A stretch of 64,000 nt of DNA from Jiangella gansuensis DSM 44835 (GTDB lineage Bacteria; Actinomycetota; Actinomycetes; Jiangellales; Jiangellaceae), in contig NZ_KI911782.1 of assembly GCF_000515395.1 (NCBI RefSeq), positions 4,520,697 to 4,584,696 of the forward strand, in the 5' to 3' direction. Below the pieces are notes generated by a model. It was not told where the DNA came from and ran no database searches. It saw only the letters and a program-made list of their open reading frames with translations. The position numbers and the translations under genes were made by a program. Positions 59,090 through 60,284 of this stretch are shown one piece after another; position 1 is the stretch's first letter; the number at the start of each line of letters is the position of its first letter.

Positions 59090-59168
59090 CGCGGGCAGCG
59101 CTAGGGGTCACAGCAGGGGACGTGGCCCGGCAAGGACATGGCTGGACCGCCGGCGCCCTCCGACAAGA

Positions 59169-59206
59169 AGCCCCGGCGCGGAACCACTACAGAACGCGCC
59201 GGGGCT
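59169..59206 (+). terminator. 12-bp stem hairpin after ccdA
   Basis: AGCCCCGGCGCG, 14-base loop, CGCGCCGGGGCT. Perfect stem, 79 bases after the ccdA stop; no T-run. Its loop contains GAACCACTACAG, which recurs at the start of the small ORF at 59401. Confidence 0.6.
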
Positions 59207-59261
59207 CAGCCGGGATCACGGGTGTTAGAGCACCTAGCCCAACCATAATCAAGTTTACCCG

Positions 59262-59291
59262 TTGACGGGGATCTTGGCCGAGTGTCACGAT
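59262..59291 (+). promoter_or_regulatory. Possible promoter of the small structured unit
   Basis: TTGACG, 18 bases, CACGAT. The -35 is good, the -10 weak (only A2 and T6 of TANNNT). Predicted start near 59298, just before the first hairpin. The stretch 59207-59300 has visibly lower GC than the surroundings. Confidence 0.4.
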
Positions 59292-59313
59292 GATCGACTA
59301 ACTACATCGGGAA

Positions 59314-59351
59314 TCCGCCCGGCGTAGTCCAGAGAGGGGCTACCGGGCGGA
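59314..59351 (+). other. Two-tier RNA hairpin in leader
   Basis: TCCGCCCGG pairs with CCGGGCGGA (9 bp). After a 2-base bulge, TAGTCC pairs with GGGCTA (6 bp with one G-U) and closes an AGAGAG loop. A compact, stable structure in the presumed 5' leader, 50 bases before the small ORF. No T-run follows, so a terminator role is unlikely. Confidence 0.65.
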
Positions 59352-59361
59352 CTGTTAGAGC

Positions 59362-59407
59362 GGTTCACCTGGTGCCCTCAGAACTTGGGGAGGACCTCAA
59401 GTGAACC
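59362..59407 (+). promoter_or_regulatory. Stems hiding the ribosome site and start codon
   Basis: GGTTCAC (59362-59368) pairs with GTGAACC (59401-59407), taking in the GTG start. Inside, ACTTGGGG pairs with CCTCAAGT (59383-59402, one G-U) with an AGGA loop, taking in the GGGGAGGA ribosome site. The two helices share two bases, so they may stack or switch. CCTC at 59376-59379 could also pair with GAGG of the ribosome site. Confidence 0.6.
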
Positions 59408-59535
59408 ACTACAGCAGGCGAGGACGTACGACGTTGGAGCGCTTGGAGAGGCTTCGTCGTCACACCAAGGTCCTTGGTCAGATCCTTCGGGACCTTTGGC
59501 CGTTGGTCGTGGTGGCGTTCTTGGTTCGGATGTGA
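59401..59535 (+). CDS. 44-residue cationic/hydrophobic small protein
   Basis: GTG start 6 bases after GGGGAGGA. The product has a very basic first half (NHYSRRGRTTLERLERLRRH), a helical TKVLGQILRDLW part and a hydrophobic end (LWPLVVVAFLVRM). It could insert in the membrane edge-on or as a short helix, like type I toxins or small regulatory membrane peptides. All eight Leu codons are TTG or CTT, never CTG or CTC, and GC is about 59%, unlike all nearby genes. Its ribosome site lies in a hairpin and a terminator follows 42 bases after the stop. No family recognised. A leader peptide is unlikely, as no same-strand gene follows for 2.6 kb. Confidence 0.55.
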   Translation: MNHYSRRGRTTLERLERLRRHTKVLGQILRDLWPLVVVAFLVRM

Positions 59536-59577
59536 CCTTGCATCAGCTCGGCTGACGTCGAGCCGCAGGGAGCGAAC

Positions 59578-59601
59578 GGGGATCGGTGAGAGCCGATCCC
59601 C
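59578..59601 (+). terminator. Intrinsic-type terminator of the small unit
   Basis: GGGGATCGG-TGAGAG-CCGATCCCC: a perfect 9-bp stem, 6-base loop, followed by TTCGTG. 42 bases after the small ORF. From here to 59838 nothing recognisable is seen. Confidence 0.7.
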
Positions 59602-59837
59602 TTCGTGCGTTGCGCCGAGCGTCCCCGGCGGATGTGACGTTGTGGGCGAATGGCACACGGGGCCTGCCCACGACGTGACACAAGCCAGCAAGGCGTCCCG
59701 CAGGACGGGGATGAATCTGCCCGGGTGGCGCCGGCGCCAACAGTGGGCCGTAGCGTCGCCGGTCCAGAACACGTACCGCACGCCCGGGCGGGCATGGTCC
59801 GGCACCTCGAGGCTGCCGTCGCGCACACCCCGGCTGG

Positions 59838-60284
59838 TCAGATCACGTGGAGGCCGAGTGCCTCGCGGACCAGCCGGACCGCCTCGCCGGGCGAGGGCAG
59901 CGCACCGGCGCTGACCGTCCGCCCGTCGACCATGATGGCGGCATATGCCGGGCCGCGCAGCACCGCCTTGACCGCTTCACCCCAGGAGAGGCCCTGGCGA
60001 CGGACATCCTTGGCAATCGCCGGGGCCAGGTAGAGGTGGTTGCGCGGGTCGACGATCTCGAGGTCGACACCGGCGGGCAGGTTGTCGCGCAGGGTCAGAT
60101 ATATCCGGGCGAGCGGGTCCCAGTCGTCCCGCTCGCCGAAACCGCGGTGTGCCTCGTGGTGCTCAGGGTTGACGCACAACCCCTTGGTGGACCCGCCCCC
60201 GCAGCACCCCGCACCCACGCCCTCGGACATGTCCCAGGGGCGAATGAGCAGGACACGGTGGGTGGATTCGACGGGCCCGGTCAC
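59838..60284 (-). CDS. Thioredoxin-fold-like Cys-rich partner of CstA
   Basis: A 148-residue soluble protein. The N-terminal strand (HRVLLIRPW) is followed by GAGCCGGGSTKGLC, with three Cys, then a helix and strand (LTLRDNLPAGVDLEIVDPRN), and ends with AAIMVDGRTVSAGALPSPGE then AVRLVREAL, which is the last strand-helix of a thioredoxin fold. The Cys group may be a redox or metal site. GTG start overlaps the cstA stop by 4 bases, in the place where E. coli has the unrelated small YbdD protein. Exact function unknown. Confidence 0.7.
   Translation of the reverse strand: MTGPVESTHRVLLIRPWDMSEGVGAGCCGGGSTKGLCVNPEHHEAHRGFGERDDWDPLARIYLTLRDNLPAGVDLEIVDPRNHLYLAPAIAKDVRRQGLSWGEAVKAVLRGPAYAAIMVDGRTVSAGALPSPGEAVRLVREALGLHVI

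Follow-up and report, generated by a model that had tools for sequence, protein, structure and literature searches.

In a 64,000-nucleotide (nt) stretch of the genome of Jiangella gansuensis DSM 44835 (contig NZ_KI911782.1, positions 4,520,697 to 4,584,696; the whole stretch is hereafter the window), we found a conserved unit at about 59165–59610 that pairs a plus-strand gene for a toxin-like peptide of 44 residues (59401–59535) with a putative divergent minus-strand gene for an antitoxin-like small RNA of about 80 nt (59165–59245). We consider it highly likely that this unit is a divergent type I toxin–antitoxin module; its sequence has the features that would define such a module, and the best reading is a new type I family, the first in Actinomycetota as far as our searches show. 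An earlier, sequence-only reading of the same DNA had placed a self-contained unit at 59262–59601 and had guessed, from hidden ribosome sites alone, at a type I toxin or an RNA-controlled membrane peptide. Those borders were too narrow and left out the partner RNA just upstream; the guess itself gains support from that apparent antisense RNA, whose predicted pairing with the peptide mRNA co-varies over dozens of copies. We set the borders by the clustering of alignment ends at fetched loci, some of which overlap: 36 of 40 long alignments start at 59157–59166, and 35 of 40 end at 59608–59620.

As in type I systems generally, the partner RNA is complementary to the peptide mRNA, here through two co-varying loops. 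Loop 1 (GAACCACTACAGAA, 59181–59194, minus strand) lies in a terminator-like hairpin of the small RNA (59169–59206) and repeats the start of the open reading frame (ORF), GTGAACCACTACAG; it is identical over 12 nt (59181–59192) to plus-strand positions 59403–59414, a segment that overlaps the GTG start codon by one base. The loop of the second hairpin (59221–59234, minus strand), TTAGAG, repeats the loop of an address hairpin in the mRNA leader (59356–59359), and both loops are antisense to the mRNA when read on the minus strand. Among 50 aligned copies examined, the second loop and its leader counterpart are both present in 41, and in 39 of these the two carry the same code, with 12 different matched codes represented. 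When pairs were shuffled, matches averaged 4.8 and never exceeded 13 (mean 11.4 and maximum 25 when shuffled within genomes); the two exceptions are a copy with a broken ORF (L055) and one with a largely deleted toxin (L085). Loop 1 behaves similarly: it pairs with the cognate start region at a mean of −21.2 kcal/mol, compared with −13.3 kcal/mol when the target comes from another unit in that genome, and in 30 of 36 cases the cognate outranks every other target in its genome (10.0 expected). Parsimony on a tree of 36 matched copies, built without the code columns, counts at least 18 code switches, although the shared descent of the copies and the 11 of 33 inner branches drawn open on this tree tell against leaning on that number. 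Judged by eye, units with the same flanking genes in different species differ in code yet match internally (for example, L048, L060, and L067).

The same correspondence holds among 36 places outside the 33 rows on which we trained a model of the minus-strand RNA. All 13 units there with a readable address loop and ORF carry the exact code, 90–120 nt downstream in 12 and 20 nt downstream in L164, where the leader is partly deleted; the code occurred in none of 126 mismatched combinations and in 0.2% of base-shuffled sequences. Six of the 13 have a code in common and are perhaps orthologous, which brings the effective number closer to eight. In 12 of the 13, loop 1 matches 8–13 nt of the start region; in L150 the longest loop 1 match lies elsewhere, and the start-region match is 7 nt by eye. 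The peptides of these units fall into three groups. The first comprises relatives of the window peptide—L144 (E 1e-12), L143 (E 1e-7, via the 55-residue form), and, by eye, L087, L147, and L164—while the second (L142/L145) and the third, a 48-residue type (L140, L150, L158–L160, and the similar L153, whose start is uncertain), have no detectable similarity to it.

Secondary structure of both predicted transcripts is conserved. The small RNA is predicted to form two hairpins, the second with an open loop and the terminator hairpin with a loop containing two weak extra pairs only; its window fold scores better than shuffled sequences (z −3.38, 1 of 200 as good), and in an alignment of 33 copies both partners have changed at 15 of its 23 pairs, a value equalled in none of 500 shuffles. 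A −10-like box, TANNNT, with no clear −35 element seen (59252–59257, minus strand), stands near the same place in 34 of 34 copies examined, and the RNA would start about 7 nt after it. Of 33 rows, 24 have a T-rich tail after the terminator hairpin (CTTCTT in 18, TTTCTG in six). On the plus strand, promoter-like elements (TTGACG, then TGT-CACGAT, with 18-nt spacing; 59262–59291) precede a leader with three conserved folds. Hairpin P1 (CCGCCCG...CGGGCGG with an inner GTAGTCC/GGGCTAC; 59315–59350) has 96.4% of cells paired and little co-variation, and the address hairpin (GGACTGT-TAGA-GCGGTTC; 59349–59366) has 99.5% of cells paired, and one of its seven pairs co-varies (AU 15, GC 9, GU 6; nine compensatory cells). 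An alternative fold (CTGTT/AGCAG and GGTTCAC/GTGAACC; 59352–59418; 93.5% of cells paired) hides the ribosome binding site and the start codon and is the minimum-energy fold of the window leader; it and the address hairpin share bases and are therefore mutually exclusive. The fold of the leader (59296–59430) beats that of every one of 200 shuffled sequences (z −4.11), which bears out the earlier description of strong hairpins whose stems take in the ribosome site and the start codon. The ribosome binding site it had named, GGGGAGGA, is present at 59387–59394 as read from the sequence, as is the plus-strand ORF of 44 codons from GTG to TGA, and a terminator-like hairpin follows at 59578–59601.

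Taken together, these elements suggest how the module may operate. The plus strand would yield an mRNA of about 310 nt encoding a small basic-hydrophobic peptide, its leader folding, by conserved prediction, to conceal the ribosome site and start codon; the minus strand would yield the short two-looped antitoxin RNA. During transcription the address hairpin would probably form first as a docking site, with the hidden-start fold following. Loop 2 of the antitoxin would then kiss the address hairpin, and the terminator-hairpin loop, loop 1, would bind the start region, blocking translation of a peptide that presumably acts as a membrane toxin. Having an address of two loops would prevent cross-talk between paralogous units that share a cell. 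What we have observed directly is the loop complementarity and its co-variation; that the two RNAs are made and bind each other, that the peptide is repressed, and that it is a toxin acting on the membrane are inferences.

The peptide itself is basic and then hydrophobic, as previously described, with the hydrophobic stretch in its C-terminal half, and at 44 residues it falls under the limit of about 60 expected of a small type I toxin with a hydrophobic stretch. Other intact copies have 49–57 residues, and more distant units encode peptides of 48–71 residues, some exceeding 60. The window peptide is short through a one-base deletion that removed the common C-terminal tail, a change shared by all eight aligned members of its subfamily; for comparison, a frameshifted IbsC is reported to remain toxic (PMC7192591). 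Past codon 8, the window subfamily (seven sequences) shows a nonsynonymous divergence (dN) of 0.065 versus a synonymous divergence (dS) of 0.216, and for codons 1–8, the antisense target, the values are 0.288 and 0.341. The corresponding figures are 0.149 and 0.332 for the 55-residue subfamily (11 sequences) and 0.066 and 0.099 for the 50-residue subfamily (five sequences). On these values the peptide appears to be under moderate purifying selection past codon 8, and the check for silent-site bias that the earlier reading had proposed thus comes out in its favour. Separately, the hydrophobic run of the L080 peptide is long, and the peptide weakly matches a holin family in PHROGs (E 0.0016), which hints at a function in the membrane; for its sister L088, PHROGs gave no match at E 0.1.

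The unit belongs to a dispersed family with many copies, concentrated in Jiangella. A DNA match to 59230–59620 was found in 15 of 60 relatives, a few of these matches being short and perhaps chance or remnants, and nine lie in the window's own genome; the peptide matched at E ≤0.001 in 12 of 60 genomes, and the 11 named relatives found in a genome collection all belong to Jiangella. The RNA model identified 86 sites resembling the antitoxin, distributed over 13 of the 22 Jiangellaceae genomes searched; these 13 comprise 11 of 12 Jiangella and both genomes from one related Jiangellaceae genus. Class-wide, a peptide profile matched 17 of 393 genomes (12 Jiangella, two of one related genus, and three others at E 0.005–0.009, which we treat as chance), and RNA model R2 matched 18 of 296 (11 Jiangella, two of the related genus, and five others at E 1.6e-4 to 7.6e-4). 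In a rough parse of those five, three had the second hairpin and two had a short code downstream without context; in our judgement all five are chance.

Toxin and antitoxin are not equally often found without the other. An antitoxin match lies upstream of 48 of 50 peptide matches, the other two being fragments without a start, whereas among the 86 antitoxin matches 46 stand beside a peptide match of the window type, intact or broken. The remaining 40 divide into eight with another peptide, eight separate RNAs by a CGNR-like gene, and 24 with neither, seven of which are second RNAs in tandem. Tandem antitoxins upstream of one toxin occur at L143, L165, L166, L167, L063, L080, and L088. The eight separate RNAs (L149, L151, L152, L154, L157, L161, L162, and L163; at about 2001–2105 in each) have loops that hardly vary (CACCGGTGTGGGA in six of the eight), a second hairpin that contains GGTGGTGGAAGCACC or a close variant, and no accompanying toxin. 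They adjoin what appears to be the same gene end (..RRWCSMQRCGNLAKVRAHRGRA in L151, the one read), a gene that we take to be CGNR-like, and the invariant-loop RNA beside it may be a domesticated regulator. One orphan antitoxin lies in the window's own genome (L136, 2001–2102): its loop 1 matches the window peptide start for 14 nt, with a pairing energy of −24.6 kcal/mol (cognate −21.0), and its loop 2 code differs. On this complementarity, L136 is a possible trans-acting antidote for the window peptide.

Several observations weigh against a toxin–antitoxin assignment. The window peptide has been shortened by its frameshift and is of only moderate hydrophobicity (best 15-residue Kyte–Doolittle mean 2.04), dN/dS is only moderately low (about 0.67 past codon 8 in the 50-residue subfamily), and the ORF is broken in several copies, which means that the peptide is not a strict requirement. 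Broken ORFs also enter the count of 46 antitoxins with a peptide, and since at most 16 candidates per genome were scored in the peptide search, a lone toxin could be missed. In the three tandem arrangements parsed (L143, L165, and L167), the second RNA mismatches the code of the unit below it, and neither counted T-rich tail is present in nine of the 33 antitoxin rows, in some because the row ended early. The promoter and terminator of the sequence-only reading fare unevenly: TTGAC at 59262 and the GTCA box after it occur in 34 of 34 copies examined out of the 50 aligned, and the hairpin at 59578–59601 recurs in the family alignment, but an E. coli-type scan found no promoter, and the hairpin, with its T-poor tail, was absent from the scan's list. 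Pfam, PADLOC, NCBIfam, and Rfam include known type I families. No match to a known toxin family was obtained in Pfam (no families for 10 peptides), PADLOC (no matches for four), NCBIfam (one match for four peptides, at E 0.11, far below its cut-off), or PHROGs (10 peptides, with the weak L080 holin match and two matches, at E 0.11 and 0.27, to an unknown family). Rfam gave nothing at gathering thresholds and one chance match (E 0.56); one 55-residue relative matched nothing in plasmids or phages, and the peptide alignment matched nothing in viral contigs.

The strongest alternative, though an unlikely one in our estimation, is that the antisense switch is as described but controls a small membrane protein of ordinary function, for instance in stress signalling, rather than a toxin. 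The pairing evidence speaks to regulation and not to toxicity, and several members are only modestly hydrophobic. The pattern of decay nevertheless resembles that of toxin–antitoxin systems, toxin-less antitoxins being common while peptides lacking an antitoxin amount to the two headless fragments among 50; many paralogues with private addresses, frequent ORF breakage, and patchy sites likewise fit addiction modules better than a housekeeping peptide.

The genomic setting bears on a second alternative. The sequence-only reading had called the ORF's codon use foreign, and its composition is as reported: 58.5% G+C against 71.4% for the window (about 59% had been claimed), with all eight leucines encoded by TTG (four) or CTT (four), while the adjoining CstA-like gene uses CTG 47 times, CTC 20 times, and TTG six times. 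Foreign origin is nonetheless rejected, as the unit is dispersed throughout the genus Jiangella. A neighbouring ccdA-like gene is found in 10 other genomes (11 places), where similarity to the window ends at the gene end and no unit occurs within the roughly 1.5 kb fetched past it; the unit thus arrived at its present site in the source lineage or was lost in the others. A minus-strand ORF of 148 residues just downstream of the unit (59838–60284) had no match at E 1e-20 in 11 other Jiangella genomes. These empty ccdA sites, together with dispersed copies that have fairly sharp ends, could also be expected of a short repetitive mobile DNA element in which the two internal direct repeats serve as recombination or protein-binding sites, the RNA features being incidental. 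We regard this as very improbable given the compensatory changes in the RNA stems, the position of the code in hairpin loops on both RNAs, and the retention of the ribosome site and an ORF with dN below dS; in addition, no terminal inverted repeats, target duplications, or transposase were seen at the unit, by eye and not by systematic search. Least credible of all is that the upstream module is transcribed on the plus strand as a decoy that copies the mRNA sites and soaks up another regulator, which would suit the identity of the plus-strand repeats taken alone but not the T-rich tails (24 of 33 rows) and TANNNT box (34 of 34 copies) of the minus strand.

The toxin–antitoxin reading is further informed by likeness to described systems, chiefly par of pAD1 and zor–orz, although by sequence the unit appears to fit the full definition of neither. 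In par (Fst/RNA II, of the Fst/Ldr family), as PMC7472228 describes it, a pair of direct repeats gives antisense over a GUG start and terminator loops start the kissing interaction, to which we liken the repeat of 59181–59192 at 59403–59414 over the Jiangella start codon. The par transcripts converge and share one bidirectional terminator according to the same text, whereas the ORF, hairpins, and promoter-like boxes of the Jiangella unit point to divergent transcripts with separate terminators. Divergence of the predicted antitoxin RNA is instead shared with zorO–orzO and zorP–orzP of E. coli O157:H7, where, according to PMC3919570, complementarity is limited and a short variable stretch decides which paralogue is recognised; the Jiangella unit differs in having two loop sites, the longer one on the start region. 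Alternative mRNA folds that hide the ribosome site are described for aapA/IsoA of Helicobacter pylori, whose mRNA is made active by 3′-end trimming (PMC6733600). Finally, msoT1/msoA1 of Microcystis is likewise a type I module outside the classical phyla, a cyanobacterial system set beside the Jiangella family by description and not by sequence; before that case, all known type I systems came from Proteobacteria, Firmicutes, and Tenericutes, as stated in the 2025 paper (PMC12390103). Among the openly licensed papers listed in our searches, judged by titles and opening abstract lines, we found no type I system in actinobacteria.

If our reading is correct, the Jiangella family would extend type I systems to Actinomycetota. 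Within it, units would have reached different sites and lost toxins, leaving toxin-less antitoxins behind. A broader proposal, which we advance tentatively and at somewhat less than even odds, is a superfamily of actinobacterial type I modules that share a single antitoxin scaffold bearing two exchangeable loop addresses and serving at least three peptide types without detectable similarity to one another; the addresses would switch in step to give many exclusive pairs per cell, units would reach new sites, and orphan antitoxins would stay as immunity against returning units. The co-variation of the loops suggests a search method independent of peptide similarity, and the 12 matched codes in one genus form a natural library of RNA–RNA address pairs that allows direct tests of the rules of antisense specificity among paralogues.
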